A DNA stretch of 64,000 nucleotides from Dehalococcoidia bacterium (GCA_035528575.1 DATKYK010000034.1:1-64000), one strand, 5' to 3'; positions 1,184-42,623 are shown, counted from the stretch's first letter. Program-made: numbers and translations. Notes: generated by a model not told the origin, from the sequence alone.

Positions 1184-1198
1184 CGTATTGTTCACCCG

Positions 1199-6593: not shown

Positions 6594-6598
6594 ATAAG

Positions 6599-7102: not shown

Positions 7103-7149
7103 TAAATAAATGGATGTTATTATAAGTGACCGGGGGAGGGATATAAACC

Positions 7150-7620: not shown

Positions 7621-7702
7621 CTGTGTAGGTCATTCCCAGGGGACCTAGACAATCGGAAACAGGGTACAGTAGTTCGAGGCGATAGAAAGGAGGTTAGATA
7701 TC

Positions 7703-8641: not shown

Positions 8642-8691
8642 AAAGTCCAGGGTGTTCAAGTAGCCAAACATCGGCTGGGCCGTCATCGAAG

Positions 8692-8904: not shown

Positions 8905-9001
8905 ATACGCGTAGCTCAGGTTTTGTCGGGAGAAAGGTCAGTAATCATTGTGATAAAACAAAATACGAGGGCTATTAACTACCGTAGAGAGGTGTACTGA
9001 G

Positions 9002-10192: not shown

Positions 10193-10276
10193 TCCCATGG
10201 AGTAGCGGCCAGGGAGAGGATCTGACTGAAGAAGAGGTCTTAGCGCTCTATGATGCCGAAGACGATAAAAAATACC

Positions 10277-10304
10277 AGCGGGCTCGTTATAGCTCTTGCC
10301 CGCT
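10277..10304 (+). other. Hairpin between acyl-CoA dehydrogenase and ligase genes
   Basis: AGCGGGC (10277-10283) pairs with GCCCGCT (10298-10304) around a 14-base loop. No T tract follows, so it may be a processing or stability element rather than a terminator. Confidence 0.35.
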
Positions 10305-10363
10305 GCCAAGGGTAACCCTTCAGTGTTGTTTGGTCGGATGGAAGTAAACTGGGATGGAGGCAT

Positions 10364-23899: not shown

Positions 23900-24097
23900 T
23901 TAACACAACTCGGCGTAAGCTCCGGAAAGGAGTGTATCGACATCGGGTACCGTTACCTCAGTTCCATCATCGCTCAGCGGCTTGAGCAGCAGGTCGGGCA
24001 GGTGGCAGTCGTCGGCAGGGGTCAGCCCACGGCGCAGGTTTAGCATTCGCTTAAGCGTGACGATGCGTTTTGCCCAGCGTCGTCGGGTCTTCCGCCT
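23900..24097 (-). pseudogene. Remnant of an aldehyde ferredoxin oxidoreductase C-terminus
   Basis: Read on the minus strand, an open frame with no start ends at TAA 23900-23902. It encodes RIVTLKRMLNLRRGLTPADD, then LPDLLLKPLSDDG and an acidic end. This matches the C-terminal region of AOR proteins, where the intact AOR at 25805 has ARVFSVREGLTRADDTLPPRLLEDPLPDG. The frame is cut at its 5' side by the end of the acyl-CoA synthetase gene. It is probably a leftover of a duplicated or rearranged AOR gene. Confidence 0.6.
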
Positions 24098-25793
24098 AAA
24101 TGAGTAATCCTTGCTCCTTCATTTTCTTGATCTCTTCTTCTCTTAATACCCTTTTGAATATCTTCTCTGTGACGGTTAAGGGCAGGTCATCTCTGAACTC
24201 TACAGATTTGGGTACGGCAATGGCTGGGAGCTTATCCTTGCAATACGCGATAATCTCATCAGCAGTGAGCTTGCCTTTGTATTCCTCCTTTGGTTTTATG
24301 AAAACCTTTATCCTCTCGCTCCCCGGGCGCTCGGGATCGGGAATGCCCACCGCTGCAGCCATAGCCACCCCCGGATATTTAAACAAGATTTCGTCAACTT
24401 CTGTTGTGTAGACTTTATACCCTGAGATATTTGCCATATCCTTGATCCGATCCTCGAGGACAAAGTACCCGTTCTCATCCATTCTTCCGATATCACCGGT
24501 GTGAAGCCAGCCATCGGCGTCAAGGCCGCTGCCCGGTGTAGGCCAGTATCCCTTCATAGTCTGTGGGCCACGAATTACTATTTCGCCGCTTTCACCCGCA
24601 CCAAGCTCCTCACCGGTCTCCAGGTCTACAATTTTCACCTCGGTATCAGGCACTGGCAGCCCTATGCCCAGCGTCTCCTTGGCAGTGAAACCGGTGATTT
24701 TGGAAAAAGTGGTAAGATTTGCATGAGTTAGAGGGCCACACTCGGTTAAACCGTAGCCTTCCGTTACCGGCATCATAATTTCCCTCTTGATGGTTTCAAA
24801 AATCCCCTCTGGAAGTGGCGCTGCAGCTGACATTAGTAGAACTGGCAACCTTCCCACTTTTTTCTCGGCTATCTTCATTAGATGAGTAGGAACAACGAAA
24901 ATCACCAGGGGGCGATGCTCCTTCATAATGCTTATGACTTGATCGGTATCCCTAGGGTCGGAAACCAGGAAAATACGCAGGCCTAAAGCAATGCAGCATA
25001 GCACTGACATATGTCCGTATGCATGGAATAAGGGAACAACTACTTCACCGGCAGCTTTTCCCTTAATCCCCCGCCACAGAGGCTCGAGCACCCATGTCAT
25101 TTGCCTTATATTACAGGCCCTATTGTAATGGGTTATCATCACACCTTTTGGTACTCCTGTGGCACCTCCAGTAAAGGAAAGATAGGCCAAGTCCTCCTCG
25201 GGATCGATGTCAACCTGGGGAGGTTTTGGCTCATGCTCGGCTATGAGGTATTTGAACTGGTAAGCACCGGGTACTTCTTTTACCTCGGGCTCCTCTGTGG
25301 AATAATCCATAGGTGAGGTAACGATTACGTTCTTGAGTTTTGTTTTATCCTTTATTGAATTAACCAGACTCAGAGCCTCATCTGAGCAAATTACTGTCTC
25401 TGCCCCTGATTCGCCTATCTCGTATTCCAGGTCGAGAACCTTGTGAAGTGTACTACAGGGAACAAGGGTGGCACCCGTTTTCGACACGGCAAAATCAGAT
25501 ATGATACATTGTGGGCAATTCGGCAGAATTGTTGCCACTTTATCACCCTTCTTTATCCCCAACCCTGCAAGGGCATTTGACAGCCGGTCTACATAGTCCC
25601 TCAGTTCGCTGTACCTTATTTTCTTTCCAAGGTAGTCAATGGCCACCTGATCAGGATATGCCTCCGCTGAATCATCCAAGAACGTATACACCGGAATTTT
25701 GGGATACGGCTCCAGAGTCTTCTTCAACGGATACGGCCCGAGCTTATAATTCTTGAGCCAGGGCTTATCACTTCCCTTTATCTTCTCCACCAT
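24096..25793 (-). CDS. AMP-forming acyl-CoA synthetase
   Basis: A 565-residue ANL-family ligase: ATP loop FTGGATGVPKGVMITH, EGYGLTECGP, HTGDIGRMDENGYF, the hinge EDRIKDMANISGYKV, and a C-terminal Lys region VTEKIFKRVLREEE. It converts a carboxylic acid to its CoA ester. It starts 11 bases after the AOR stop with AAAGGA before ATG 25793, so the two are probably cotranscribed: AOR would oxidise an aldehyde to an acid, or reduce the acid, and this enzyme would link the acid to CoA. It is a paralogue of the ligase at 10364-12070. Confidence 0.88.
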   Translation of the reverse strand: MVEKIKGSDKPWLKNYKLGPYPLKKTLEPYPKIPVYTFLDDSAEAYPDQVAIDYLGKKIRYSELRDYVDRLSNALAGLGIKKGDKVATILPNCPQCIISDFAVSKTGATLVPCSTLHKVLDLEYEIGESGAETVICSDEALSLVNSIKDKTKLKNVIVTSPMDYSTEEPEVKEVPGAYQFKYLIAEHEPKPPQVDIDPEEDLAYLSFTGGATGVPKGVMITHYNRACNIRQMTWVLEPLWRGIKGKAAGEVVVPLFHAYGHMSVLCCIALGLRIFLVSDPRDTDQVISIMKEHRPLVIFVVPTHLMKIAEKKVGRLPVLLMSAAAPLPEGIFETIKREIMMPVTEGYGLTECGPLTHANLTTFSKITGFTAKETLGIGLPVPDTEVKIVDLETGEELGAGESGEIVIRGPQTMKGYWPTPGSGLDADGWLHTGDIGRMDENGYFVLEDRIKDMANISGYKVYTTEVDEILFKYPGVAMAAAVGIPDPERPGSERIKVFIKPKEEYKGKLTADEIIAYCKDKLPAIAVPKSVEFRDDLPLTVTEKIFKRVLREEEIKKMKEQGLLI

Positions 25794-25804
25794 GGCAGTC
25801 CTTT

Positions 25805-27673
25805 CTATTTCCCCCAGATATCAGGGATATACTCTTCTAATCCTAACTCTTTGAGCTTTTCCGGGGTGGGCTTCCCTGTAGCCTTATCCCATCCTCGCAG
25901 CTCATAGTATTTATCCAGCATCTCGGTTAAATTCTCATTAACCTTACCTTTGGCTGGGCCATCGGGCAGTGGATCCTCTAGCAATCGGGGAGGTAGAGTA
26001 TCATCAGCTCTGGTCAGCCCCTCCCTTACACTGAAGACCCTGGCAAGGTTATAGGCTCTCTCGCCGAGCTGCACCATATCATCATACGTGAATTTCCGGC
26101 CGAGACAATGCTCTACCAACTCTACCCACTCATCTGAATCTACACAGAATCCCATGAACTTGCACGCCCCAAGTGTGTCAAGTGCAGTCATGACATTCTC
26201 CAGATCCACTAAAACGTGAACCTCATTTGGATCGGCCACAAGTGAATCCTTGATCCTGCTATCTGGGATGCAAAGGAACGGTATATCAAAAAAGCTTGGG
26301 CCTTGTATATATGCGGTAACATGGTCGCCACCCCTGTTGGCAACAGCATATGCTAGCCCGGTTATCTGAACTGCCCTGGAATCATAGGCTGGAAGCTCCA
26401 AGCCCTTAACATTCATAGCGAATTTTTCGCTTCCCTTGCCCAACTTCTGGGACATCCTTCTCGTTCCCTCAGCCAGTAAATCACCGACACCCTCTCTCTT
26501 GGCTATCTTGTGTACCAGCTCTACCACGATGTCAGCGTCACCAAATTTGAGCTCCAATCCATCCGTATCCGATTTGGTCAGTATTCCCTTTTCATAGCAT
26601 TCCATGGCGAAGGCAATGGTACTTCCTGTCGAGATCGTATCGAGGCCATAGTCATCGCACAGGTAATGTGCCTTTGTAATTGCTTCCATATCAGTGACCT
26701 GGCACTGACCACCGAGGGTTCCAACACTTTCGTACTCCGGTCCTCCCCCACTGGCACCCTTGTATTTACCCTTCCTGATTTCACTTCGTCTTCCACATTT
26801 AATTGGGCAAGCGAAACACCCCCAGGACTCTACGAGAACCTTTTCGCTGAGGGCTTCCGCGTTTATTTCCTCTAAGTTTGGAAAGACACCGGTTTGCCAG
26901 TTTCTTGTAGGAAATCCACCCTTTTCATTCACCATATCAATAACGGCGTTCGTGCCAAATGTCTCCAATGCCACTTTCAGCAAAGACTCATCGACCAGCT
27001 CGAACTGTTTCCTTGCTACCTTGGCAAAAGCAGTTGCATCTGCCAACTTTACTGGCTTTTTCCCATATACAGCAATAGCTTTCAATCGCTTCGAGCCCAT
27101 TACTGCTCCGCCGCCGCACCTTCCTGCTGCTCTATGGACGTCGCTCATAGTGCTGGCATATCTAACTTTGTTTTCACCTGCTAATCCAATACAAACAACA
27201 TTGAACTTGTCACCTAGCTCTTTCTTTATCTGGTCTGTAGTTTGAGAAACATCTTTACCCCATAAGTTTTTCGCATCTCTAAGCTCAGCTTTACCCTCCT
27301 CAATTAAAAGGTAAACAGGTTCTGGTGAGATGCCCTGAAAAATAATTCCGTCAAAGCCTGTTCTCTTAAAGTCTACCCCCCAAAAGCCGCCTACATTTGC
27401 TTGTGCCCATATACCAGTTAACGGCGATTTGAAAACCAGGTTGTATCTCCCGGTGCTGGGAGCCTGAGCTCCTGTTATTGCTCCAGACATAAATATGAGC
27501 TCATTTTTAGGGCCTAACGGGTCTGCCCCCTTGGGAACCTCATGATAGAGGTAATGGGTTGCCAGCCCGGCTCCAGTTAAGTACTTGTCAAACAGATCTT
27601 CAGGAATTTCCTCTTCTGAAACTTTGGACTCCGACAAATTGACCCTTAGAATTTTCCCATGGCCTCCAAACAT
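25805..27673 (-). CDS. aor: Aldehyde ferredoxin oxidoreductase, tungsten type
   Basis: A 622-residue protein covering the full AOR family: N-terminal domain GKILRVNLSESKVSEEEIP, pterin-binding segments, and [4Fe-4S] Cys residues in GCFACPIKCGR, with a further Cys in LGACKFMGFC. The enzyme carries tungsto-bispterin and oxidises aldehydes with ferredoxin, or reduces acids in reverse. ATG 27673 (MFGGHGKIL) is preferred over ATG 27685, because GGAGG lies five bases before it and the family N-terminus begins there. It is cotranscribed with the acyl-CoA synthetase. It fits a strictly anaerobic lifestyle. Confidence 0.9.
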   Translation of the reverse strand: MFGGHGKILRVNLSESKVSEEEIPEDLFDKYLTGAGLATHYLYHEVPKGADPLGPKNELIFMSGAITGAQAPSTGRYNLVFKSPLTGIWAQANVGGFWGVDFKRTGFDGIIFQGISPEPVYLLIEEGKAELRDAKNLWGKDVSQTTDQIKKELGDKFNVVCIGLAGENKVRYASTMSDVHRAAGRCGGGAVMGSKRLKAIAVYGKKPVKLADATAFAKVARKQFELVDESLLKVALETFGTNAVIDMVNEKGGFPTRNWQTGVFPNLEEINAEALSEKVLVESWGCFACPIKCGRRSEIRKGKYKGASGGGPEYESVGTLGGQCQVTDMEAITKAHYLCDDYGLDTISTGSTIAFAMECYEKGILTKSDTDGLELKFGDADIVVELVHKIAKREGVGDLLAEGTRRMSQKLGKGSEKFAMNVKGLELPAYDSRAVQITGLAYAVANRGGDHVTAYIQGPSFFDIPFLCIPDSRIKDSLVADPNEVHVLVDLENVMTALDTLGACKFMGFCVDSDEWVELVEHCLGRKFTYDDMVQLGERAYNLARVFSVREGLTRADDTLPPRLLEDPLPDGPAKGKVNENLTEMLDKYYELRGWDKATGKPTPEKLKELGLEEYIPDIWGK

Positions 27674-27713
27674 TTTTACCTCCATTACTCTTAATTATCA
27701 TCATTATAGCAAT

Positions 27714-27741
27714 GTAGGGGCGCAGCATGCTGCGCCCCTAC
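27714..27741. repeat. Perfect 28-bp palindrome between AOR and alcohol dehydrogenase
   Basis: GTAGGGGCGCAGCA (27714-27727) is followed at once by its exact reverse complement. In RNA from the minus strand it forms a long hairpin between the iron alcohol dehydrogenase stop and the AOR gene. It could be a REP-like repeat or a bidirectional terminator; no long T run follows. Confidence 0.65.
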
Positions 27742-27749
27742 CGAAACAT

Positions 27750-28913
27750 CTAGAAGTCCACCGAGCGGCCGTCGTAGGCGTAGAGGAAAAGCTTACTCAG
27801 TTCCTCATAGGAGGGGGCACGGACAGCGGTGATTATCTGTGTGTCATTGAAAGCATCGTCTACTAGCTTTTCCAATTGTGCTTCGTAAGCCTTGCGCTCG
27901 ATGCCCATTTCTGCAACCTTGATTGGATTCCCTACCTTCTGGCATAGATCACGAATGTATTTTGCGAGAGCCCGTGCTGCTTTTTCACCTTCTTCCGTAG
28001 AGCATCCGATGAAAGAGGCCAGTTCCGCGAACCTCTCCGGTTCTTCGTTGGCCGCGAACTCTATAGTATACGGAAGGAAGAGAGTGACGGCGCGACCGTG
28101 GGGTATATGGAATACTGCTCCGAGCACATGTCCCATTGCGTGAGCCATTGAGGCCATGGCATTGCCATAGCCCAGGCCGGCGCAGGTGGCCGCATTATGC
28201 ATTCTCTCCCTGGCTTCAATATCGGAGCCGTCGGCAACGGCGCGTGGTAAGTACTGAAAGATGAGGCGCATAGCGTTGAGGCACAGGCCATCGGTGATGT
28301 CGGTATGCCACGTGCATGTGTAGCCTTCAACGGCTTGGGTCAGCGCGTCCAGGCCGGTGTCGGCAGTCAACTGGGGGGGCATTCCCGCTGCCATCTCCGG
28401 GTCCACGATAGCGATGTCGGCGGTGTTTTCTCGGTTGCCCAATCCCATCTTGCGCTGCTCCTCGGTATCGGTTAAAACGATAGCCCAGGTGACTTCGGCC
28501 CCGGTGCCGCTGGTGGTGGGTATGGTAATCAGGCGCGCCTTCTGACGCAGAACCAGGTCCGCAATGGGATTGATGGCGGCTGGCTCCATATCAGGCTGCT
28601 CGTAGAGCACCCAGATGGCCTTGGCGGCGTCTAGCGGCGAGCCTCCACCCAAGCCGACGATCCAGTCGGGTGCAACCTCCATGGCGATCTGCGCTCCACG
28701 TCGCACTGTCTGCACACTGGGCTCGGGCTCGATCTCGTCGAATACGTGCACTTCGATGCCGGCTATGTCCAGATGGGCCTTTACCTTGTCTACCAGGCCA
28801 AGTTGGACCATCATGCCGTCGGTGACAATGAGGGCGCGTTTTCCCTCCAACTCGTCGAGCACTTCCAGCGCCCCCTCACCAAATACGATTCGCGGCGAGA
28901 CGAAGTTCCACAT
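27750..28913 (-). CDS. Iron-containing alcohol dehydrogenase
   Basis: A 387-residue group III (Fe-dependent) alcohol dehydrogenase: N-terminal NAD(P)-binding domain with GGGSPLDAAKA and TIPTTSGTGAEVT, and a C-terminal helical domain with metal-binding His residues in MAHAMGHVLGAVFHIPHG. It interconverts alcohols and aldehydes or ketones. GGGAGGT lies before ATG 28913. It is followed by the AOR and acyl-CoA synthetase genes on the same strand, so an alcohol to aldehyde to acid to acyl-CoA route is a fair inference. Confidence 0.88.
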   Translation of the reverse strand: MWNFVSPRIVFGEGALEVLDELEGKRALIVTDGMMVQLGLVDKVKAHLDIAGIEVHVFDEIEPEPSVQTVRRGAQIAMEVAPDWIVGLGGGSPLDAAKAIWVLYEQPDMEPAAINPIADLVLRQKARLITIPTTSGTGAEVTWAIVLTDTEEQRKMGLGNRENTADIAIVDPEMAAGMPPQLTADTGLDALTQAVEGYTCTWHTDITDGLCLNAMRLIFQYLPRAVADGSDIEARERMHNAATCAGLGYGNAMASMAHAMGHVLGAVFHIPHGRAVTLFLPYTIEFAANEEPERFAELASFIGCSTEEGEKAARALAKYIRDLCQKVGNPIKVAEMGIERKAYEAQLEKLVDDAFNDTQIITAVRAPSYEELSKLFLYAYDGRSVDF

Positions 28914-29031
28914 CGCGACTACCTCCCTCTGATAAACGATCCAAGACGATTGACGAAAGACAGATGATAGATAACGAAGGGCGAATTGCCAGTTATGCCC
29001 GTTCTATACCCGTCGGTCACTGTCCTTGATG

Positions 29032-29442
29032 TCAGTCACCGAAGTCGGTGGGTACACGCGAGACGCAGTTGACTAGCTCCTTGGCTGCCTTGGGGTAGCG
29101 CATGACTTTCATCATATCACCCTTCAACTTTAATTTGCGTGTCATCATTCCCGCAATAGGGTCCAACTTCCCTTCGATGACCTTGCGCCAGTTGCTGAAT
29201 TGGGCGCGGATGATGAACTGTGCCTCTCGCTCGCCCTCGCTGGCTAGCTCTATTGCATCGGTACACTTGCCGTGATATAGGCCGACGAAGAGATACCGGG
29301 TCTCGGGATAAGCTTTATCGGGCTCGCAAATGAAGATGAAGTCCCCTTCCCAGTCCTTAGCTGATCTCTCGTATGCCTCGCTGGCATTGAGTTGACTGGC
29401 GAACTCCTTAACCCATTCGTCGGATGGAAATTTAAGAGCCAT
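29032..29442 (-). CDS. SCP2 sterol-carrier-like domain protein
   Basis: A 136-residue protein matching the stand-alone SCP2 sterol-binding domain: an alpha/beta fold with a hydrophobic tunnel that holds fatty acyl-CoA or sterol-like lipids. The typical final hydrophobic strand-helix region (KLKLKGDMMKVMRYPKAAKELV) is present. It starts at ATG 29442 after GAAAGGAGGAAG. It probably belongs with the alcohol dehydrogenase/AOR/acyl-CoA synthetase genes downstream, perhaps carrying a hydrophobic substrate. Confidence 0.8.
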   Translation of the reverse strand: MALKFPSDEWVKEFASQLNASEAYERSAKDWEGDFIFICEPDKAYPETRYLFVGLYHGKCTDAIELASEGEREAQFIIRAQFSNWRKVIEGKLDPIAGMMTRKLKLKGDMMKVMRYPKAAKELVNCVSRVPTDFGD

Positions 29443-29509
29443 GACTCTTCCTCCTTTCTCTGACCTTTGCTCTCAGGTATTTAGCCCCACCGCCTGGAGT
29501 GTGGCGCTC

Positions 29510-29539
29510 AGTCTAGCACCCAATTGGGGTGAAAGTCAA
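29510..29539 (-). promoter_or_regulatory. Probable promoter for the SCP2-ADH-AOR-ligase run
   Basis: On the minus strand TTGACT (29534-29539), 18 bases, TAGACT (29510-29515). The spacer holds a CACCC...GGGTG inverted repeat, a possible operator. It is about 70 bases before the SCP2 gene. Confidence 0.45.
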
Positions 29540-29684
29540 TATATGAATTTGCCAGCATGGTTGCTAGAAACACCTGCCTATTTCTCCTAAATAGCTATAC
29601 TCTCCTCTCTTTTAGAAACTACAACCAATCCCTTAGTAGTTTTACCGTTTCTAAACATCTGGCATTCGCTGAGCGAGGGCCTTC

Positions 29685-30587
29685 CTATAAATTGGCTGCC
29701 CGTTCCACGCAGCGTTTCCACCTGGCATTTACCCGTTCCTGCAGTTTGTTAATCTGCTCTTGGGTAATACTGTTAAACCTCCCCTGTTCCATGAGAAATT
29801 CTCTCACCGGCCTTAGATTACCCTTTCGGGCAATGGATTCACTGGCCGATGTGAGGTGGAAAACGCCGTCCTCAACCTCATAGAGTACGACCCATCCCGT
29901 CTGTACAGCGAGCTCGCCGATCTTGATGGTGTCACTGAAGGGGAAGCGCCATCCCGGGGGGCAGGGTGTGAATACGTGTATGAACCTGGTTCCCTCTATT
30001 GCCTTTGCCTTGCTGACCTTCTGGTAAAGGTCCAGGGGATAGGAAGCATTGGCTGTAGCGACATAGGGGATGCCGTGCGCTTCCATTATCGCGGTCATAT
30101 CCTTCTGATTCTGCTGCTTGCCCAGTATAGGCGTGGTACCTGAAATGGCGCCCAGGGGGGTGGAGCCAGAGCGCTGATTGCCGGTGTTCATATAGCCCTC
30201 GTTATCGTAGCAGATATAGATGAAATCCTCTCCCCTTTCAGCGGCGCCGCTCAACGCCTGGATCCCGATATCGTGTGTGCCGCCGTCACCGGCGATGGCC
30301 AGTACAGTTAATCCCTTTCTGCCCAGGGCTTTCAGCCCGGCAACCAGTCCGGTAGCCGATGCGGCGGTGGAGGCGAATGGCGTGTTTACACAGGGGACAT
30401 TTACCGATGTTACCGGGTACATGCCGTGCAGTACGGTTAGGCAACTGGCTGGCACTGTCACGATAACCTGCCCATCCAGCGCTTTCAGGATATGGCGGTA
30501 GGCTAGAGACAGGGCGCAGCCGGGGCAGGTCCTGTTGCCTGGCAGCAGATATTCTATTTCGGGAAGGTTAACTGCATTAGTTTTCAA
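29685..30587 (-). CDS. porB: 2-oxoacid:ferredoxin oxidoreductase, beta subunit
   Basis: A 300-residue TPP-binding subunit. The N-terminal CPGCALSLAYR supplies cluster-ligand Cys residues. The TPP/Mg motif is GDGGTHDIGIQAL to CYDNEGYMNTGNQRSG. With the alpha, gamma and delta subunits it oxidises a 2-oxoacid plus CoA to an acyl-CoA, CO2 and reduced ferredoxin. The last gene of a four-gene minus-strand operon, 13 bases after the alpha gene. Substrate preference (pyruvate, branched-chain or aromatic 2-oxoacid) cannot be told, so the por symbols are only nominal. Confidence 0.88.
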   Translation of the reverse strand: MKTNAVNLPEIEYLLPGNRTCPGCALSLAYRHILKALDGQVIVTVPASCLTVLHGMYPVTSVNVPCVNTPFASTAASATGLVAGLKALGRKGLTVLAIAGDGGTHDIGIQALSGAAERGEDFIYICYDNEGYMNTGNQRSGSTPLGAISGTTPILGKQQNQKDMTAIMEAHGIPYVATANASYPLDLYQKVSKAKAIEGTRFIHVFTPCPPGWRFPFSDTIKIGELAVQTGWVVLYEVEDGVFHLTSASESIARKGNLRPVREFLMEQGRFNSITQEQINKLQERVNARWKRCVERAANL

Positions 30588-30600
30588 ACCGGCAGGCCTC

Positions 30601-31836
30601 TCAAATATGACATATCCATTCGGGGTATTCGCGGTTCAAAACCCCCTCTTTAAGAGATGGCAGCGCCTTCCTAACCGCATCCGCTATCTCTCTGGCTTTT
30701 ACATCACGACCACCCAGTCCGACAATGAAGTTTCTTATTACCGCATTTATACCACTTCCGTAGAGGGCTGATTTGATTTCCGAGCAGGTGGCTCCTTCCG
30801 AGCCGTAGCTGATATTCTTATCGAAAACCGCGATAAGGCGGGTTCTCTTGAGCGCCTTCACCAGATCAATTTTAGGGAAGGGTCTTAGCACTCTCAAGCC
30901 CAGGACACCCGCCCGGTGTCCTTCTTCACGGAGCATGTTTGCCGCCACTACTGCCTCCATCGCCAGGCTGCCCGTTGCCACAATAGCTATATCGGCATCA
31001 TCCATTCTGTCTTCCCAGAACATACTGGCGTAGCTTCTTCCGAATAGCTCGCTGAATTCCCGGCTGACCTTGCTTATGGTCTCCCTTGAATTCTGCAGAG
31101 CCTCCTGGAGCAGAAACCTCAGCTCCATATACCCGTGGCAGAGCACGCCCTCAGCGTTAACCCTGGGGTTTGCCAGGGTTACCAGGTTGTAGTTCCTGGG
31201 GTTGGCCGGGTCCAGTGTGGTGTGGGGGCTGTAGTGGGGTAGAAACCTGTCCACTTCCCCCTGTGACGGCACATCCACCGGCATTTCAGTATGAGATAGG
31301 ATATAACCGTCGTAGCAAACCATAACCGGCACATAGACTGTCTCGGCAATCTTATAGGCCTGGATCACCGAATCCAGTATCTCCTGGTTGTTTCGGGCGT
31401 ATATTTGTATCCAGCCGGTATCCCGTTGGGATATAGAGTCCTGTTGGTCATTGAGAATACTCCAGGGTGCTCCGATAGCACGGTTTACGCAGGCGAGAAC
31501 CAGGGGGAGGCGTGTCCCGGCAGCCCAGTGCAGCATCTCGTGCATGTAGGCCAAGCCGTGTGAACTGGTGGCGGTGAAGGTCCTGGCTCCTACAATAGAA
31601 GCCGAGGTGCATACGGCGAGGGCGCTGTGCTCACTCTCGACGGCAATATACTCGGCATTCAACTCCCCTCGTTCCACGAATTCAGAGAGGATTTCGGTGA
31701 CCGGTGACTGGGGCGTAATAGGGTAGGCAGCGATCACCTGGACACGGCTGAGCTTTGCCCCCTGGGCTGCAGCGTGATTGCCATCAATTATCCGTATATC
31801 GGCTTCGCTATCTGTCTTCTTGCTCAAATCACTCAA
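30601..31836 (-). CDS. porA: 2-oxoacid:ferredoxin oxidoreductase, alpha subunit
   Basis: A 411-residue subunit with the PYR-domain N-terminus (GNHAAAQGAKLSRVQVIAAYPITPQSPVTE), the conserved ESEHSALAVC segment and a C-terminal transketolase-like domain (VLGLRVLRPFPKIDLVKAL). It forms the active site together with the beta subunit. It starts five bases after the delta gene. Confidence 0.88.
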   Translation of the reverse strand: MSDLSKKTDSEADIRIIDGNHAAAQGAKLSRVQVIAAYPITPQSPVTEILSEFVERGELNAEYIAVESEHSALAVCTSASIVGARTFTATSSHGLAYMHEMLHWAAGTRLPLVLACVNRAIGAPWSILNDQQDSISQRDTGWIQIYARNNQEILDSVIQAYKIAETVYVPVMVCYDGYILSHTEMPVDVPSQGEVDRFLPHYSPHTTLDPANPRNYNLVTLANPRVNAEGVLCHGYMELRFLLQEALQNSRETISKVSREFSELFGRSYASMFWEDRMDDADIAIVATGSLAMEAVVAANMLREEGHRAGVLGLRVLRPFPKIDLVKALKRTRLIAVFDKNISYGSEGATCSEIKSALYGSGINAVIRNFIVGLGGRDVKAREIADAVRKALPSLKEGVLNREYPEWICHI

Positions 31837-31841
31837 TCTGT

Positions 31842-32132
31842 TTAGAGGTCCTCTTCATTTACCATGGTTATAGCCTGTGCCGGGCATACCTGAGCGCATA
31901 TTCCACACCCTTTGCAGTACTCTAGGTTTATCTGGACCGGTATGGTTTTACTGATGAGTGCGTCCGGGCAGTAGAGCCAGCATATAAAACAGGCTGGCTT
32001 GCCGCGCTTTGCAGGGATGCACTTTTCGGGGTCTATTACTGGAAGTGAACTGCGCCACTCGCCTGTCCTCCCGGCTTCTCCAATACCCGGTGACGATTCA
32101 CCACATATATGCTGGCAACTCCTGGTTCCCAT
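31842..32132 (-). CDS. porD: 2-oxoacid:ferredoxin oxidoreductase, delta (ferredoxin) subunit
   Basis: A 96-residue double [4Fe-4S] ferredoxin. The second cluster motif is regular (CKGCGICAQVCP). The first is stretched, with nine residues between the first two Cys (CIPAKRGKPACFICWLYCP), a pattern common to the delta subunits of this enzyme. It carries electrons from TPP to soluble ferredoxin. Nine bases separate it from the gamma gene. Confidence 0.88.
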   Translation of the reverse strand: MGTRSCQHICGESSPGIGEAGRTGEWRSSLPVIDPEKCIPAKRGKPACFICWLYCPDALISKTIPVQINLEYCKGCGICAQVCPAQAITMVNEEDL

Positions 32133-32141
32133 AACTTTCTA

Positions 32142-32720
32142 TCACCCTGTTTTCTGTAGCCTGGTTATCTCGTAGGTCTTCCTGAATGCGATGATGTTAT
32201 TATCTACTAGGCTATCGGAGAATCTTTCTCTTATTACCTTTTCTATGCTTGCTATATCTACCAGCTCAGTAGCACGGACTAACGCGCCCAGTATAGCTGT
32301 ATTCACCACGGTTAAGCCGGCAACTATGAGGCCCAGCTCCCGGCATACCCTGGTGGCATCAGCAGTAGCGATGTTGAAATCACCGTTAACCTCGAGTTCA
32401 TCTGGACGCTGACGTGAGTTCACCACCAGCCATCCCCCCCTACTCAGTCCGCCGATTACATCCTTGTCTCTCAGCAGGGTGTGGTCTAGGACTACTACAA
32501 CGTCGGGTTCTTCCACCTGTGACGTAACCATGATTGGCTGCGGGGAAATCCTGGTTGATGCGCTTACCGGAGCGCCTCTCCTCTCGGCGCCAAACCATGG
32601 TGCAGCCGTTACCCCCTGATAGCCTTTGAGGTAGGCTGCCTGTGCCACTATCTTGGCGGCCGTTATGGCCCCCTGACCGCCCCGGCCATGCCATCTAATC
32701 TCGTAAAGCCTTGTTTCCAT
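32142..32720 (-). CDS. porG: 2-oxoacid:ferredoxin oxidoreductase, gamma subunit
   Basis: A 192-residue gamma subunit with the family start (RWHGRGGQGAITAAKIVAQAA) and APWFGAERRGAPVSASTRIS. It binds CoA and contacts the alpha subunit. First gene of the gamma-delta-alpha-beta operon. No good ribosome binding site is visible before ATG 32720, so the message may be leaderless or weakly translated at this gene. Confidence 0.88.
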   Translation of the reverse strand: METRLYEIRWHGRGGQGAITAAKIVAQAAYLKGYQGVTAAPWFGAERRGAPVSASTRISPQPIMVTSQVEEPDVVVVLDHTLLRDKDVIGGLSRGGWLVVNSRQRPDELEVNGDFNIATADATRVCRELGLIVAGLTVVNTAILGALVRATELVDIASIEKVIRERFSDSLVDNNIIAFRKTYEITRLQKTG

Positions 32721-36080: not shown

Positions 36081-36878
36081 CTAGCTAAAGCGTTCCGCAA
36101 AAATGCGTTTTTCCACGATATTGCGAACGGCGGCAAGGCCTGGTGATGTGGTGAGCTCCATTAAGGGCTTGCCCAGCAGATCGTAGTGGGCGATATCTTC
36201 ATCCTGGGGGATATAACCAAAAACCTCCAGTCCCATATCCTGTGCGGCTTGTCTTAATAATTCCTCGTTACCCTGCACCCTATTAAATACCAGGCCCAGC
36301 CTCTCACACTGGATCACCCTCTCGCTCTGAGCCATCCCTTTTATCTGGGCTGCGGTCTGCAAGCCCCTGGATGTAGCATCACTAATTATAATCAGGGTAT
36401 CGACGTGGCCCATGACCTGCCTATTTATCTGTTCCAGGCCGGCCTCGCCATCGATGAGGATGGTGTCGAAGCTCTTGGAGAGGGTTTCTATCGCCCCACG
36501 CATAAGGTTGTTGACCGGACAGTAGCAGCCCAGCGTTTCGGTGCGTCCCATAGCCAGCAGGGCGAAGTTGTCCATCTCCTCGAGGGCCTCAAATACCATG
36601 TAGTCGAGCTTATCGACCAGTTGGCGACTTTCTTCCTGCTTGCCCTTCCTGGCAGTCCTGATTATCTCCTCACGGATTTGGCCCATGGTTCGTCTGACGG
36701 TTATGCCAAGGGCGAGGGGCAGGCCCATGGCCGGATCGGCGTCAATGAGCAGCAGCTTGCCTCTCTGGCCATTATCCAGTAGGACCTTGGTCATCATGGC
36801 AGTGAATGCGGTCTTACCTGTGCCTCCTTTGCCGCATACAGCGACAAGCCTGTTTTTTGGAGTGGTAGATTCAGCCAT
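36081..36878 (-). CDS. cooC: CooC-type P-loop ATPase (nickel insertion/maturation)
   Basis: A 265-residue MinD/SIMIBI-class ATPase. The deviant Walker A CGKGGTGKT lies at residues 15-23, and LLLIDADPAMG and TILIDGEAGLEQ are the switch regions. The motif GCYCPVNN has the Cys-x-Cys of CooC proteins, which bind metal at the dimer interface and help insert nickel into carbon monoxide dehydrogenase or acetyl-CoA synthase. The second ATG (36878) is preferred because AAGGAG is eight bases away. It follows an acetyl-CoA-synthase-like gene by 29 bases, so that protein is its likely client. No CODH catalytic subunit is in the window. Confidence 0.82.
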   Translation of the reverse strand: MAESTTPKNRLVAVCGKGGTGKTAFTAMMTKVLLDNGQRGKLLLIDADPAMGLPLALGITVRRTMGQIREEIIRTARKGKQEESRQLVDKLDYMVFEALEEMDNFALLAMGRTETLGCYCPVNNLMRGAIETLSKSFDTILIDGEAGLEQINRQVMGHVDTLIIISDATSRGLQTAAQIKGMAQSERVIQCERLGLVFNRVQGNEELLRQAAQDMGLEVFGYIPQDEDIAHYDLLGKPLMELTTSPGLAAVRNIVEKRIFAERFS

Positions 36879-36907
36879 GGGCATTTCTCCTTCTCAGATC
36901 AACAAGG

Positions 36908-37708
36908 CTATGAATTAGCAGCGGTCTTAGTTTTCTTTGTTTTTTTCTTGCGCACCTTAACTACCGTCCTGATTTCATCGCACACCGGTTTATATTCGCA
37001 GGAGCGGCAGTCCCAGCCGAGGGTGCACTCGATTTCATCCAGGTCGTAGCCTTTAGCCTTCCAGACATCCTTGGTGATGTTATGGGATATCTCCCGCACC
37101 TGCTCGTCGATGCTCTCCAGGGGCTTAAGGTCCTCCCTGCTCGAGGTAACGAAGATAATCTCCATTGCCTGTATCTTGGACACCTCTGACTTGAAGATGG
37201 CCATTAGCGCCCTTCCCAGGGTCTCGAAACAAAAGCCCTTCTCCGCCGCCTCATTACTCACCCTGCTCCACATGTGCTGAGGTATGCTTCTTATCATGTA
37301 GCCCTCTATCTGGTCGGCTATGTACTGGTTACGCGCCAGCTCTTCGTGCTCTTTTTCGCTGAGGCTCTCTCCACTAACCATGAGGACCTGGCCGAAGGGC
37401 AGGCTGCCCCCTGACGATTCCGGGATATCGGGGCCGATGAGTGTAATCCTGCCGTCTCTGAGCAGGGAGGTGTTATCGGTCCATAGCAGGAAGGCGGAGG
37501 AACCGCAATCCGGATTCCCCAGCTCGATGAAGGTGTCTCCCCTGAGTATTATTCCTGGGCTCGCCCCGGGGCCAACCCGCACCGGAAGCCCTTCAAGAAG
37601 CTCGCTGACCGAGAGAGGACAATCGATCTCTCTGACTTCGCCACCCTTCTGGCGCACCTCCGCCCTGTATTGAGTCAGCTTCTTAATGTATATGTCGAAG
37701 ATTGCCAT
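36908..37708 (-). CDS. Truncated acetyl-CoA synthase beta-subunit-like protein (CdhC/AcsB family)
   Basis: A 266-residue protein aligning by eye with the region of CdhC/AcsB before and around the A-cluster: FIELGNPDCGSSAF, then DGRITLIGPDIPE and FGQVLMVSGESL, then GFCFETLGRALMAIFKSEV. Real A-clusters have CTLC...C...C and a distal Cys-Gly-Cys that holds the two nickel ions. Here the cluster region reads CTLGWDCRSCEYKPVC (four Cys, different spacing), and the protein ends in a Lys-rich tail with no Cys-Gly-Cys. It therefore cannot be an ordinary acetyl-CoA synthase. It may hold a simpler Fe-S or metal site, matured by the neighbouring CooC. Start ATG 37708. Confidence 0.65.
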   Translation of the reverse strand: MAIFDIYIKKLTQYRAEVRQKGGEVREIDCPLSVSELLEGLPVRVGPGASPGIILRGDTFIELGNPDCGSSAFLLWTDNTSLLRDGRITLIGPDIPESSGGSLPFGQVLMVSGESLSEKEHEELARNQYIADQIEGYMIRSIPQHMWSRVSNEAAEKGFCFETLGRALMAIFKSEVSKIQAMEIIFVTSSREDLKPLESIDEQVREISHNITKDVWKAKGYDLDEIECTLGWDCRSCEYKPVCDEIRTVVKVRKKKTKKTKTAANS

Positions 37709-37877
37709 GATCTGTTTCCGCTTGGCAGGTCTGGATTCCTTGAGATGTTTAATAACCGTATCCGTAATTCTAAGCGAAGTGAAGAATCGGTACCATTCGC
37801 TGTCGCTCAGAGTAACAGAACAATGAAGGCTGCCAGTTCAATTGGGCTATGTGGTATGTTGACAGGGGGGAATCGGC

Positions 37878-38666
37878 TCAGGATTTCTTACTCAGTCGCT
37901 CCCTGGCGATGAGGGCTGCCCCTATCGCCCCGGCGATCTGGGGGTCTGAGGGCAGCTTTATCACGCTTACCTTTAGCTTCTCCTCAAGTGCCTTGGCCAG
38001 CCCTTCGTTCTTGGCGCATCCGCCGGTCAGCGCCAGGTCTTCGACGAGGCCCACCTTCCGCACCATGGAATTCAACCTGCCCGCCACCGCGTTGTTGACA
38101 CCGGCGGCTATATCGACCACTTCTGTACCCTCGTTGATCAGGGTTACAACCTCGGACTCAGAAAATACGCTGCACTGGCTGGTTATGATGGCCGGGCTCT
38201 CTGACTTGAGCGAAAGAGATGAGATTCCCTCCAACCCACATTCGAGCACGCGGGCCATCGCCTCGAAGAACCTGCCCGTACCCGCAGCGCACCTGTCATT
38301 CATAACGAACTCGAGGACATTGCCCTTATCATCTAAGGACATCACCTTGCAGTCCTGCCCACCGATGTCGACAACCGTTCTCACTGTGGGGCAGAGCCAG
38401 TGGGCGCCGCGGGCGTGGCACGTTATCTCCGAGATGTTTTCATTGGCGAAGGGAACCTTGAGACGGCCGTAGCCGGTTCCCACGATATATCCCAAGTCAT
38501 CCAGCGATGACAGACCAGCCTTCTTAAGCGCCTCATCCATGGCGGTACGCGCCGTAATCTCTGGCTTGGTAGTGGAGGGGATAATCACGTACGAGGTGAC
38601 TTCACCGTTCTTCATCACAACCGCCTTGCCGGTAGCAGAACCTACATCACAGCCTCCAACAATCAT
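37878..38666 (-). CDS. ATP-dependent activator of 2-hydroxyacyl-CoA dehydratase/benzoyl-CoA reductase type
   Basis: A 262-residue ASKHA-fold ATPase of the HgdC/BcrA-D/BadF family: GGCDVGSATGKAVVMKNG at the start, DIGGQDCKVM and NDRCAAGTGRFFE with the two Cys that bridge a [4Fe-4S] cluster between the two monomers, and GGCAKNEGL near the end. It hydrolyses ATP to push an electron onto the partner at very low potential. ATG 38666 (MIVGGCDVG) is chosen: AAAGGAGA precedes it. It lies 31 bases after the partner gene. Confidence 0.9.
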   Translation of the reverse strand: MIVGGCDVGSATGKAVVMKNGEVTSYVIIPSTTKPEITARTAMDEALKKAGLSSLDDLGYIVGTGYGRLKVPFANENISEITCHARGAHWLCPTVRTVVDIGGQDCKVMSLDDKGNVLEFVMNDRCAAGTGRFFEAMARVLECGLEGISSLSLKSESPAIITSQCSVFSESEVVTLINEGTEVVDIAAGVNNAVAGRLNSMVRKVGLVEDLALTGGCAKNEGLAKALEEKLKVSVIKLPSDPQIAGAIGAALIARERLSKKS

Positions 38667-38697
38667 ACTATCTCCTTTCTTGCTTTGTAATCTATAC

Positions 38698-40008
38698 CTA
38701 TTTCTGGCCCAGCCCCGTTGCGCTGAAGAACTTGGAAAACTTGTCCTTGACCTCGTCCACCGAGGTGTACCTCTTGTCAAAAATATCGACGCCGAGGTGC
38801 AGGTAAGGAACCCCTAGCTCACGGCACTTCTCCCTCATCATGCCGGTGTTGGCCGAGCCGTCCTTGTGGCCCATATGCGCTGGCCAGACGACGCAGTCGA
38901 TCTTGTAGTCTTTGACAATTCTCTCTATATCGCCGAGGAAGTGGTCAGCCACACCCCGCGCCTGCCGGATCATGGGATACTGGGTGAGGGATCGCTTGGA
39001 CAGGTCCCGGAACATGGTGTCCTCGTTCTTAGTGTCTATTGGCTCATACGGGGTATGGCCGAACATGTTCATGACGATGCTCACTCCCCACTCCGACTCC
39101 AACCACGGTTGTATGTCGAACTGCCACATCAGCGGCAGGATGTCAAACCACAGCATCCTGATCTTCTCCCCACCCGGCACACCGCTTACCCCTGCCTTTA
39201 CCCGTTTCTCTGCGTTGGCAATGAGTCTCTTGAACCATTCGGCGCCCCCGGGCTTGCCGGGATAGTAGAAGGTAGCCATGGCGAAGCATTGCGGCGGGCC
39301 GATGGTCCAGTCGTGGGGACATGGCACCACCCGCCTGAGTTCGTTGTATTCCTGCCACAGCGCGTACTCCTTGTTGGACTCCTCGCATACCTCCCGCAGC
39401 CGGTCGATATCCAGCTTGTATCCGGTGTGCTCGGTGACAAAGTCCACCATACGCCTGAGCTCCTCGGCATAGTACTCATAGCTTCGCTCATCCTCCCAGT
39501 AAGGGGGGTCAGCGCCGAACATCGGGACGTCATGCCACTTGCCGTGTTTAATCGCCTGGTGGACTATTGTGGTACCGTCGCAGGGGTGAAGCAGGGCGAT
39601 ACATGCAGTCGGCTTTGGACTCATATCGGCCTCTACATAGTACAGTGAAAGCCTGAGCACGGTACAGAAATCGCTGCCCAGCAGCCTCTCGGATCCATCG
39701 ATATCGTCGGTGATGTGTGGCGCTTCGATCCCGAGGAATGCAGTCTGGGGAAACATCCACCACGGGACACCCATGGCGGTAAATAGCTCCGCTGCATAGG
39801 CGAACCAGCTCGCGATGAATGGCTTGTCGTTTTCGGCACAATCCAGTACTTCGTCATACTTATCCAAAACCGCCTTTATTACGCCCTTATTGATCTCTGC
39901 TTCCTCGGATTCATCCAGCGAAAGCGCATCCAGGAGCATCTGCATATAGGCTTTATCATCTCTATATAGTTTAAGTGCTTTTTCAGGTTGTTTTCTCTTT
40001 GTAGTCAC
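38698..40008 (-). CDS. 2-hydroxyacyl-CoA dehydratase/benzoyl-CoA reductase-like subunit, larger
   Basis: A 436-residue member of the HgdB/BcrB superfamily. The C-terminal Rossmann-like half has CVVWPAHMGHKDGSANTGMM and REKCRELGVPYLHLGVDIFDKRYTS, the family pattern for the DxxD...R end. Where many members have a Cys in this HxxCK motif, this one has His (HMGHK), so its cluster ligation may differ. Start GTG 40008, three bases after the other subunit's stop and preceded by GGGGAGG. With the 40012 gene it should form a heterodimer that takes electrons from the activator. Substrate unknown; reductase, dehydratase and double-cubane-type protein are all open. Confidence 0.8.
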   Translation of the reverse strand: MTTKRKQPEKALKLYRDDKAYMQMLLDALSLDESEEAEINKGVIKAVLDKYDEVLDCAENDKPFIASWFAYAAELFTAMGVPWWMFPQTAFLGIEAPHITDDIDGSERLLGSDFCTVLRLSLYYVEADMSPKPTACIALLHPCDGTTIVHQAIKHGKWHDVPMFGADPPYWEDERSYEYYAEELRRMVDFVTEHTGYKLDIDRLREVCEESNKEYALWQEYNELRRVVPCPHDWTIGPPQCFAMATFYYPGKPGGAEWFKRLIANAEKRVKAGVSGVPGGEKIRMLWFDILPLMWQFDIQPWLESEWGVSIVMNMFGHTPYEPIDTKNEDTMFRDLSKRSLTQYPMIRQARGVADHFLGDIERIVKDYKIDCVVWPAHMGHKDGSANTGMMREKCRELGVPYLHLGVDIFDKRYTSVDEVKDKFSKFFSATGLGQK

Positions 40009-40011
40009 CGT

Positions 40012-41157
40012 TTACCTCCCCATGCTTTCCAGGAATGCCTGGGCCCTGGTTCTCAACTGGCCAGCGCCGGCCATGATATATTCCCTATCCAGCTTGAGGA
40101 AAGGAATACCCTCCTCTTTTAAATCCCCGCCGAGCATGAAATTCTCACCTGTCCACAGGTCGCAGAAGATCATCCGCTCGCCGATAACCCCGTCAACCTT
40201 GAATTCCTTGACCATGTCTATAACGAACTTGGACCTTTGCGGTTGAGTATCGAACATGCGCGGACAGGCGGGTTTATCCTGGATGTAGTAACGCGCCAGG
40301 GCAGCAAGCGGGTCATTGGACTTCTCATCGACCTCATTCCATATGATTCTGGTGCCGAAACACATCGAGTCGGTGACCACCAGACCTCCCTGCTCCTCGA
40401 TGACTTTAATGAACGCCGGATCATCGAGTATGCCAGCCACGATCATCAACCTCGCCCGATAATCCTTGATGCCTTCCGCGTCGCTCAGCTCTTGCAGCAG
40501 CTCCTTGAGCATCTGGTTAAACGGCTCCCTCGGCATGGCGGTGCTGGCCACGACAACGGCAAGTGCTTCCGCACCGGTTATCGGCGGGTTATCCTTTTTC
40601 CTGAGCTCATAGAGCTGCCTCAGCAGGCGCCGCGTCTGGTTGTGGAGCTTTATCGCCTTCCATAACTTTTCATCGCTGATGGTGATGCCTAGATGCTTTT
40701 CCAGAGCCTCCTTCAGTATTTTTAATTCGTCGCGGAACCACTGCACCTGCACATCGGTGGTCATCTTGGGGAGGCTCATCATTTTGGTGAACGGTGTGTC
40801 CACCTTGCGTATCCAGTTATCGTATATGCGCCGGACGTGGTCGCAGTTGTTGAGCCAGATGAGCCCCTCGAGGAAATCGTAGTCGCCCTGCAGCCCCATA
40901 TTGTAGCAGTGACGGCAGAAACTGCAGTTGATGCTGCTCAGATAAGCATCCGCCAGCTCCGTCCCCCTGCTGCCTGTGGCCCTCATGCGGAAGGGGACCA
41001 TACCTGCGGCGGTGATGATCTCCTCCGGCCCATAGGAGCAGAAGTGGCCCACCACCTTGCCGCCCTGCTCTATCCATTTCTTCAATTCAGGGTTAACGAT
41101 GGTCTCGGTTGCTTCCTGGAATTGCTGCAATACCTTCGATTTTACTGTGGTCTCCAA
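40012..41157 (-). CDS. 2-hydroxyacyl-CoA dehydratase/benzoyl-CoA reductase-like subunit, smaller
   Basis: A 381-residue HgdB/BcrC-type subunit. Typical N-terminal segment HFCSYGPEEIITAAGMVPFRM, then INCSFCRHCYN with closely spaced Cys for an Fe-S cluster, and a C-terminal GVIGERMIFCDLWTGEN plus EEGIPFLKLDREY. Start TTG 41157, because AAAGGGGGAAA sits upstream and no ATG is in frame there. First gene of a five-gene minus-strand operon (two subunits, activator, acetyl-CoA-synthase-like, CooC), driven by a promoter at 41287-41315. Confidence 0.85.
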   Translation of the reverse strand: METTVKSKVLQQFQEATETIVNPELKKWIEQGGKVVGHFCSYGPEEIITAAGMVPFRMRATGSRGTELADAYLSSINCSFCRHCYNMGLQGDYDFLEGLIWLNNCDHVRRIYDNWIRKVDTPFTKMMSLPKMTTDVQVQWFRDELKILKEALEKHLGITISDEKLWKAIKLHNQTRRLLRQLYELRKKDNPPITGAEALAVVVASTAMPREPFNQMLKELLQELSDAEGIKDYRARLMIVAGILDDPAFIKVIEEQGGLVVTDSMCFGTRIIWNEVDEKSNDPLAALARYYIQDKPACPRMFDTQPQRSKFVIDMVKEFKVDGVIGERMIFCDLWTGENFMLGGDLKEEGIPFLKLDREYIMAGAGQLRTRAQAFLESMGR

Positions 41158-41269
41158 TTCATTTCCCCCTTTCCAGGCACCTATTTTTTGGGATGCACTA
41201 CCTCTATAAAGAGACAGCTTTGTACTGCTCCCGGTAAATTATTTTTGAGGCGAATAATCTGGGTGGCGC

Positions 41270-41289
41270 AGTATACTACACTATATACT
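41270..41289. promoter_or_regulatory. Possible operator at the dehydratase-operon start site
   Basis: AGTATA (41270-41275) and TATACT (41284-41289) form an inverted repeat with an eight-base spacer, overlapping the -10 box and the expected start of transcription. Confidence 0.4.
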
Positions 41290-41315
41290 ATAAATCGAAT
41301 TTAACTGGGTGTCAA
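41287..41315 (-). promoter_or_regulatory. Promoter for the dehydratase/reductase-like operon
   Basis: On the minus strand TTGACA (41310-41315), 17 bases, TATAGT (41287-41292). It gives a leader of about 125 bases before the TTG start at 41157. The rest of the 41316-41615 gap shows only the ribosome binding site of the next gene on the other strand. Confidence 0.7.
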
Positions 41316-41615: not shown

Positions 41616-42623
41616 ATGGAAACAGGCGATGTATACACCGAACTGGTTAAGAGGCTGAATTATACCGGGTCGGAAAGTCTGCTCCGGGTATTGCAGAAGC
41701 TTTTTACCCCTGATGAGGGTAGGCTGCTGCTCCAATTACCGGCTGAGCCATCTGACTTGGCCCGTAAATCGGGAACGGACGAGGAGACGGTGCAGCGGAA
41801 GCTCGAGGAGTTCATGGAGAGAGGACTGGTCATCCCCACCAGTAAGGGGTTTTGCTTCGCCCGAGATGTGACGCAGCTGCATGATTCCACGCTTTCTAGC
41901 GATGAGAAATGGATCGATACCGAGATTCTGGACCTGTGGAAGGAGCTTCAGGAAACTGAGTGGATTCAGCGAATGGCAAGCGGCCTCGGGGATTCGTATG
42001 TGCAGTTTATCAGGGTTCTTCCCGCCTGGAAGGCGATCGAGCGGAGCCCTGAAATCTCGGACGGCGAGCTTTTACCCGAGGAGAATATCAGGGAGCTAAT
42101 TAAAGGAGCAGACCACATCGCAGTGATTCCCTGTAGCTGCCGCAGGTCGATGAGGGGGTGTGATGCCCCGATTGATGTCTGCCTTCAATTCAACCGGGGA
42201 GCGGAATATGCCATCAATCGGGGTGCCGGAAACAGGATTTCCGCGGAGGAGGCCGTCGCTATCGCCGATCGAGCTGAGGATGTGGGCCTGATACACACCT
42301 GGCCCATGGCGGCATACGGTCGTCTGAATGAGATATGTAACTGTTGCCGCGATTGCTGTGCCATCTTCGCTATCGGCATCAAGCTGGGCAATATGGAGCA
42401 AATTCTGGAGAAGAGCCGTTTTCGTGCTGAAGTCGATCAGGAGCTTTGTAACGGCTGCCAGGACTGTGTGGAGCGGTGCTTTTTTGAGGCAATAGAAATG
42501 AAGAAGTCTTCCACATCCAGGAAGCTCAAGGCCACGATCGATTTGGCAAAGTGCTTCGGTTGCGGCCTGTGTGCTGTCGTCTGCGACCCTGGTGCTATTA
42601 TCATGAAGGTGGAGCAAGCATAG
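41616..42623 (+). CDS. Winged-helix plus multi-cluster ferredoxin protein
   Basis: A 335-residue protein. The N-terminal 85 residues look like a winged helix (LARKSGTDEETVQRKLEEFMERGLV). A middle domain has Cys-rich motifs IPCSCRRSMRGCDAPIDVC and ICNCCRDCC. The C-terminus is a two-cluster ferredoxin (CNGCQDCVERC and CFGCGLCAVVC). Similar proteins in anaerobes are annotated only as 4Fe-4S binding proteins. It is divergent from the dehydratase operon, so it may donate electrons to it, or sense redox state and regulate. ATG 41616 follows AAGGAGG. Function is inferred only. Confidence 0.7.
   Translation: METGDVYTELVKRLNYTGSESLLRVLQKLFTPDEGRLLLQLPAEPSDLARKSGTDEETVQRKLEEFMERGLVIPTSKGFCFARDVTQLHDSTLSSDEKWIDTEILDLWKELQETEWIQRMASGLGDSYVQFIRVLPAWKAIERSPEISDGELLPEENIRELIKGADHIAVIPCSCRRSMRGCDAPIDVCLQFNRGAEYAINRGAGNRISAEEAVAIADRAEDVGLIHTWPMAAYGRLNEICNCCRDCCAIFAIGIKLGNMEQILEKSRFRAEVDQELCNGCQDCVERCFFEAIEMKKSSTSRKLKATIDLAKCFGCGLCAVVCDPGAIIMKVEQA

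Follow-up and report, generated by a model that had tools for sequence, protein, structure and literature searches.

A recurrent gene module in Dehalococcoidia and two other bacterial lineages that couples a benzoyl-CoA reductase/dehydratase-like core to an acetyl-CoA-synthase-related protein and a CooC-type ATPase

Results

Gene content and layout of the locus

The window, which is the whole 64,000-nucleotide stretch of DNA analysed, comes from a 2.3 Mb genome of the class Dehalococcoidia. Five genes between 36081 and 41157, all on the minus strand, encode in order C1, B2, an activase, ACSL and CooC, separated by gaps of 3, 31, 169 and 23 bp. C1 (40012-41157, minus strand, TTG start) is a BzdN-type HGD-D subunit (PF06050, E 5e-99) and B2 (38698-40008, minus strand, GTG start) a divergent HGD-D subunit of the BzdO/HadB type (PF06050, E 4e-46). 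The activase (37878-38666, minus strand) is an ATPase of the HgdC/BcrAD/BzdPQ type and, by TIGR00241 (E 3e-76, 256 bits against a cutoff of 125), a standard acyl-CoA dehydratase activase; a longer, 300-aa open reading frame for it begins at 38780, at an upstream start that looks false. ACSL (36908-37708, minus strand) matches the CdhC domain of acetyl-CoA synthase (ACS; PF03598, E 1e-18, 67.7 bits), and the last gene (36081-36884, minus strand) encodes a CooC/AcsF-type P-loop ATPase. Domain and family matches thus bear out the description in an earlier note on this DNA of two HgdB/BcrBC-type subunits and their activator among five genes on one strand, with no carbon monoxide dehydrogenase (CODH) among them.

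That note also placed a promoter at 41287-41315 on the minus strand. The candidate sigma-70-type site there (TTGACA-17 nt-TATAGT) agrees with the consensus at 11 of 12 bases. Promoter-like matches, however, are about as frequent across the region as chance would give (5 against an expected 4.4), and the promoter is therefore unproven. A protein with Pfam HTH and 4Fe-4S ferredoxin (Fer4) domains, a possible regulator, is encoded divergently at 41616-42623 on the plus strand and is kept beside the module at loci L042 and L043.

Across genomes, neighbours of the module include thiolase/OB-ChsH2 pairs, acyl-CoA dehydrogenase, SCP2, a linalool dehydratase/isomerase family protein, a 2-oxoacid:ferredoxin oxidoreductase and, in Bacteroidales, an SBF-like transporter. 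Elsewhere in the window there are acyl-CoA ligases, an acyl-CoA dehydrogenase, BKACE, an aldehyde ferredoxin oxidoreductase and POR. These neighbours point to acyl-CoA (CoA thioester) chemistry and to reduced ferredoxin or other low-potential electrons.

A reductase/dehydratase-like core with a variant cluster site

The closest solved structure to C1 is BzdN of class I benzoyl-CoA reductase (8s02_B, E 1.4e-52), whose [8Fe-9S] cluster is held by C36/73/100/263/293/327 (PMC11971306). All six cysteines have counterparts in C1 (C40, C78, C105, C266, C298 and C332), and these are invariant in 50/50 module homologues. From these residues C1 is predicted to carry a double-cubane [8Fe-9S] cluster, and it scores 220.7 bits against the model for the double-cubane cluster protein (NF040772), under the 350-bit cutoff. 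The cluster cysteines of the activase, C126 and C165, are likewise conserved in 49/49 sequences; one activase copy is present in the window operon and two in many Desulfobacterota modules.

As a single sequence B2 scarcely reaches any PDB chain. Its family profile matches BzdO (2.5e-34) and HadB (2.4e-32), its predicted model superposes on BzdO with a TM of 0.75, and it is the predicted active-site subunit. Of the three BzdO cluster ligands, two have their counterparts in C115 and C143, which are conserved without exception in 55/55 module B2 proteins. At the site of the third, BzdO Cys380, a His is found in 22/55 and a Cys in 33/55. By alignment with BzdO, the His occurs in the clade of the window (His381, codon 38866-38868, minus strand) and in Bacteroidales, and Cys in the other clades. 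BzdO His131, which lies beside a cluster-bound water, corresponds to Thr146 of B2 in a hand-counted alignment, and benzoyl-CoA-type chemistry should therefore not be presumed for the module.

The His motif goes with ACSL. In the Dehalococcoidia draw, ACSL is present in 21/23 genomes with the motif and in 4/271 without it (Fisher p 5e-26, treating genomes as unrelated and so ignoring phylogeny). Genomes G451 and G469, 72% and 85% complete, have a genuine His-type B2 with ACSL not detected. A search of Desulfobacterota for the His-motif pattern gave, besides G557 and G560, 11 genomes with a single match, and none of the 7 checked matched the module families.

ACSL forms a family of its own

ACSL is 266 aa long and matches only the middle (A2) domain of ACS and the opening portion of the A-cluster loop, its family profile aligning with residues 314-517 of Carboxydothermus hydrogenoformans ACS. 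The predicted model is confident apart from the tail (mean pLDDT 86.8), and all 23 of its Foldseek matches at E <= 0.001 are ACS chains. The tail holds the cysteines C228-x5-C234-x2-C237-x5-C243 (36980-37027, minus strand), a possible Fe-S or metal site. The first three cluster cysteines of ACS have aligned counterparts in C228, C234 and C243, and C237 is peculiar to ACSL; C234, C237 and C243 are invariant in every sequence covering the tail, and C228 is missing in one Desulfobacterota group. ACSL ends ahead of the A3 nickel-site region, so that the CGC motif is absent. In a quick tree with long branches flagged, 65/65 ACSL sequences fall on one side of a branch with 100% support and 44 ACS sequences on the other. 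The protein had been described as truncated and like the ACS beta subunit. The relationship to ACS stands, but ACSL is a separate family (A2 plus a Cys tail, lacking the CGC nickel site) and not a cut-down catalytic beta subunit. A broken ACS pseudogene is ruled out by the intact conserved family, its group-specific cysteines and the clean split of the tree. Judged from its sequence, ACSL is an ACS-derived family, of which we found no description in the open-licence literature.

ACSL might have a catalytic metal site of its own, for example a CooC-loaded nickel, and react with what C1-B2 consumes or produces. Nickel insertion is the only known precedent for a CooC-type ATPase with an ACS-fold protein and C234 aligns with an A-cluster cysteine, yet ACSL has neither the CGC motif nor the remainder of A3 and there are ACSL sub-types with no neighbouring CooC; we hold this reading to be unlikely.

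The module CooC is distinct from that of CODH/ACS

The module CooC has a deviant Walker A P-loop (GKGGTGKT) and a CxC motif (C120/C122) found in 41/41 sequences. Together with its best match among solved structures (CooC, 3kje, E 7e-12), the conserved CxC upholds its earlier assignment as a CooC-type ATPase. The equivalent cysteines of CooC1 lie at the dimer interface, where they coordinate Zn or Ni (PMC6006190). Module CooC proteins and five CooC proteins from CODH/ACS loci form separate clades with 100% support in a quick tree.

With regard to INDEPENDENCE from CODH/ACS, the window genome encodes CODH on contig C32 and ACS on contig C12. The earlier note had considered that a full CODH/ACS elsewhere in the genome might use this CooC. 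CODH and ACS do exist there, but the ACS locus on contig C12 has its own CooC, 37% identical to that of the module. Furthermore, in two Bacteroidales draft genomes that carry the module, both in agreement, the CODH catalytic model matched nothing and ACSL accounted for every CdhC domain. As the module is present in genomes with no detectable CODH/ACS, maturation of CODH/ACS does not account for the module CooC. A role for ACSL and the module CooC in maturing the cell's own CODH/ACS accords with the presence of both enzymes in the window genome, but the separate CooC of the ACS locus and the two Bacteroidales genomes make it highly improbable. The module CooC as the maturase of CODH/ACS was rejected on the same two grounds.

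Linkage and co-occurrence across genomes

Profile searches found ACSL in 25/294 Dehalococcoidia genomes, with true ACSL separated by our own cut between a group at E < 1e-37 and ordinary ACS/CdhC, and in roughly 29/297 Desulfobacterota genomes. In Bacteroidota it is seldom met: in a draw of 238 genomes, the centre genome alone carried it. Among 67 ACSL loci from Chloroflexota, Desulfobacterota and Bacteroidota, C1 or B2 lies beside ACSL (within 8 kb, same strand) in 56, and the counts by gene are C1 53, B2 56, activase 49 and CooC 42; the sample consists of metagenome-assembled genomes, and the family profiles were seeded from the same loci. Of the 11 loci with neither C1 nor B2, 7 reach the end of a contig within 1 kb, and L178-L180 and L188 are real exceptions. 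The most frequent order is C1-B2-activase-ACSL-CooC, with variants in which the activase comes first or B2 or the activase is doubled. The five genes thus do tend to stay together. The two halves remain linked in three phyla rather than occurring independently and being adjacent only here, and chance adjacency is ruled out by a gene order kept in many genomes.

The linkage has exceptions of several kinds. One consistent ACSL sub-type has an SCP2-like protein before ACSL, an acyl-CoA dehydrogenase upstream and no neighbouring CooC. At L046, ACSL-CooC stands on its own beside MTHFR genes, and C1-B2 loci with no neighbouring ACSL are found (L189-L192, L194-L196), also in the same genomes. Because of the sub-type lacking CooC and the occasional separation of ACSL from C1/B2, the module is a looser unit than one fixed five-subunit enzyme.

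Loci of these kinds could also be read as an ordinary enzyme of the 2-hydroxyacyl-CoA dehydratase (HAD) or benzoyl-CoA reductase (BCR) type with ACSL and CooC as linked bystanders of unrelated function. C1, B2 and the activase already make a complete HAD/BCR set, C1-B2 occurs with no ACSL nearby (L189-L192, L194-L196, also in the same genomes), and ACSL-CooC can sit alone next to MTHFR genes (L046). Such a reading is nonetheless improbable in view of the tight linkage in three phyla, the parallel divergence of ACSL with C1 and CooC, and the co-occurrence of His-type B2 with ACSL. Pairwise distance correlations, with species phylogeny ignored, are high for all pairs of module proteins and highest for ACSL-CooC (0.83).

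Copy numbers suggest action in trans

In several genomes C1-B2 pairs outnumber ACSL. G557 has one ACSL-CooC pair apart from C1/B2 and four His-type C1-B2 pairs elsewhere. Beyond the window module, the window genome (G000) has one more His-type pair and an unpaired His-type B2. Several C1-B2 pairs for a single ACSL-CooC, unlinked in G557, suggest action in trans. The surplus of C1-B2 pairs, taken with the co-occurrence of the His motif and ACSL, favours but does not prove that ACSL-CooC is an accessory serving several cores rather than a fixed subunit.

These numbers also bear on whether ACSL is a working subunit, active in electron transfer or CoA-thioester binding and docking on C1-B2 or the activase, the part of CooC being limited to loading its cluster. 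C1/B2 lie next to ACSL more often (56/67) than CooC does (42/67), the tail cysteines of ACSL resemble an Fe-S site and ACS is itself a CoA binder. Against that, C1-B2 pairs exceed ACSL in G557 and the window genome, ACSL-CooC lies apart in G557, and known BCR and HAD enzymes function with no such subunit (PMC11971306). We consider a working subunit possible but doubtful, though the strongest of the alternatives.

Discussion

Our preferred reading, to which we give about an even chance, is that the module encodes an ATP-driven, low-potential acyl-CoA reductase or dehydratase belonging to the class I benzoyl-CoA reductase/2-hydroxyacyl-CoA dehydratase (BCR-I/HAD) superfamily and served by an ACS-derived maturation or activation pair, ACSL-CooC. 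Established at the level of sequence are the domain identities, the ligand residues, the linkage and co-occurrence, and a line of descent of their own for ACSL and for the module CooC. In the mechanism we propose, reduced ferredoxin would pass electrons to the activase, which would hydrolyse ATP and deliver them to the double-cubane cluster of C1. From there they would move on to B2, whose active-site cluster would have two Cys and probably a His as ligands; at this cluster a CoA thioester, presumably the substrate, would be reduced or dehydrated. By analogy with established BCR/HAD biochemistry, this route from ferredoxin to the B2 cluster is likely.

AcsF acting on ACS is a precedent for a CooC-type ATPase working with ACS. 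Because of that precedent, the adjacency of the two genes and their parallel divergence, we infer that CooC, having bound a metal through the cysteines of its dimer interface, would use ATP to work on ACSL as AcsF does on ACS. Linkage and co-occurrence in turn suggest that the loaded ACSL, bearing a cluster or metal on its Cys tail, may mature or re-activate the C1-B2 core. BzdNO gains both of its clusters in E. coli with neither ACSL nor CooC (PMC11971306), and the role of the pair must therefore be specific to this sub-family. The same observation disfavours ACSL-CooC as general double-cubane maturases (PMC11971306). A more novel proposal, that CooC inserts Ni or another metal via ACSL to give a heterometallic or non-standard site at the B2 Cys-Cys-His or the ACSL tail, is rather unlikely. 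If it is true, the enzymes would be a BCR-I/HAD branch that depends on metal and carries out hitherto undescribed chemistry.

Several observations run against the preferred explanation: the ACSL sub-type with no neighbouring CooC, the ACSL loci L178-L180 with C1 and B2 missing nearby, and the His-type B2 of the incomplete genomes G451 and G469 with no ACSL detected.

The core adds a new variant to the BCR-I/HAD superfamily. Like the module, the class I benzoyl-CoA reductases BzdNOPQ (8s02) and MbdONPQ (9gai) and the tetrahydronaphthoyl-CoA reductase ThnB-E have a BzdN-type double-cubane subunit with a BzdO-type partner, an ATP-hydrolysing activase and an acyl-CoA catabolic setting. Class I benzoyl-CoA reductases, however, have two different activase subunits where the window operon has one, and three Cys ligands on the BzdO-type cluster where the window B2 has His381 as the third; BzdO His131 is not conserved in the window B2 either. 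ACSL and CooC are extra in the module and absent from the entries of the thn operon table considered here (PMC12016498). A link to tetrahydronaphthoyl-CoA reductase was set aside, as those entries include neither (PMC12016498). A class I benzoyl-CoA reductase has been reported in deep-sea Chloroflexi, with CooC unmentioned (PMC5736913).

The 2-hydroxyacyl-CoA dehydratases HadBC-HadI and HgdAB-HgdC, enzymes that act on (R)-2-hydroxyacyl-CoA, resemble the module in having two HGD-D subunits and one activase. The second HAD subunit carries a [4Fe-5S] cluster, whereas C1 retains the six double-cubane cysteines, and here too ACSL and CooC are additional. DCCP/YjiM with its reductase shares the double-cubane cysteines and an activase, but DCCP is homodimeric, while C1 and B2 are distinct proteins and C1 falls under the NF040772 cutoff. 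On the other side, ACS/CdhC with AcsF/CooC shares with ACSL the A2 fold, part of the A-cluster loop and an adjoining CooC-type ATPase, and differs in that ACSL has neither A1 nor the nickel-site part of A3, the operon has no CODH and the proteins form separate clades. The isr operon of Acetobacterium, encoding a putative isoprene reductase, is a precedent for a reductase and nickel-chaperone-type proteins in one operon (PMC10134865). It consists of a flavin/Fe-S reductase with HypA and HypB and, going by its description, is unrelated in sequence (PMC10134865).

Among open-licence papers we found none joining the BCR/HAD-type half to the ACSL-CooC half. The five-gene set recurs in three phyla and has the look of a genuine metalloenzyme system that has yet to be described; the suggestion of one made from the window alone apparently holds, as far as the open-licence literature goes.

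Relatives of class I benzoyl-CoA reductase catalyse reactions that rank among the most reducing in biology. That one sub-family travels, across three phyla, with a remodelled piece of ACS and its ATP-driven chaperone hints at an extra metal, cluster or step of activation, and at a Wood-Ljungdahl component put to new use beyond C1 metabolism. Assigning a function to the module would do so for many hitherto unassigned genes in sediment Dehalococcoidia and Desulfobacterota, and the Cys-to-His change at the catalytic cluster is directly testable.

Genomic context and variants of the module

Divergent from the five-gene module in the window lies a gene (41616-42623) for an HTH protein with a 4Fe-4S ferredoxin domain, which is kept beside the module in close relatives and whose product is possibly a redox-sensing regulator. 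The stretches 4201-12070 and 24096-32720 hold genes of acyl-CoA catabolism, which encode thiolase, BKACE, acyl-CoA dehydrogenase and ligases, together with those for aldehyde ferredoxin oxidoreductase and POR; the last two enzymes could supply low-potential ferredoxin.

A paralogous sub-type of the module (loci L056, 1-3666; L057, 5075-10908; and L112-L117) encodes an SCP2-like protein between B2/activase and the acetyl-CoA synthase-like ACSL, with acyl-CoA dehydrogenase as the upstream gene and no neighbouring CooC; its B2 subunit retains the third Cys ligand. In the Desulfobacterota loci L175, L176, L177, L182 and L185, two activases are followed by ACSL-CooC and then by a second set of the subunits C1 and B2. 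Flavodoxin/ferredoxin or ferredoxin-domain proteins accompany these modules, and their ACSL lacks the first tail cysteine. Bacteroidales loci L047 and L049 (about 1000-9700) carry an SBF-like transporter between B2 and ACSL, with a linalool dehydratase/isomerase family protein upstream in L049.

ACSL-like proteins with no C1/B2 nearby are encoded in L178 (9511-10314), L179 (2024-2827, preceded by acyl-CoA dehydrogenase) and L180 (1944-2747), and join other ACSL weakly in the tree. A lone Desulfobacterales ACSL-CooC pair (L046, 4290-9658; also L188) lies downstream of methylenetetrahydrofolate reductase genes, and the L046 genome also holds several unlinked C1-B2 pairs of the His type, in which His stands at the position of the third Cys ligand of the B2 cluster.
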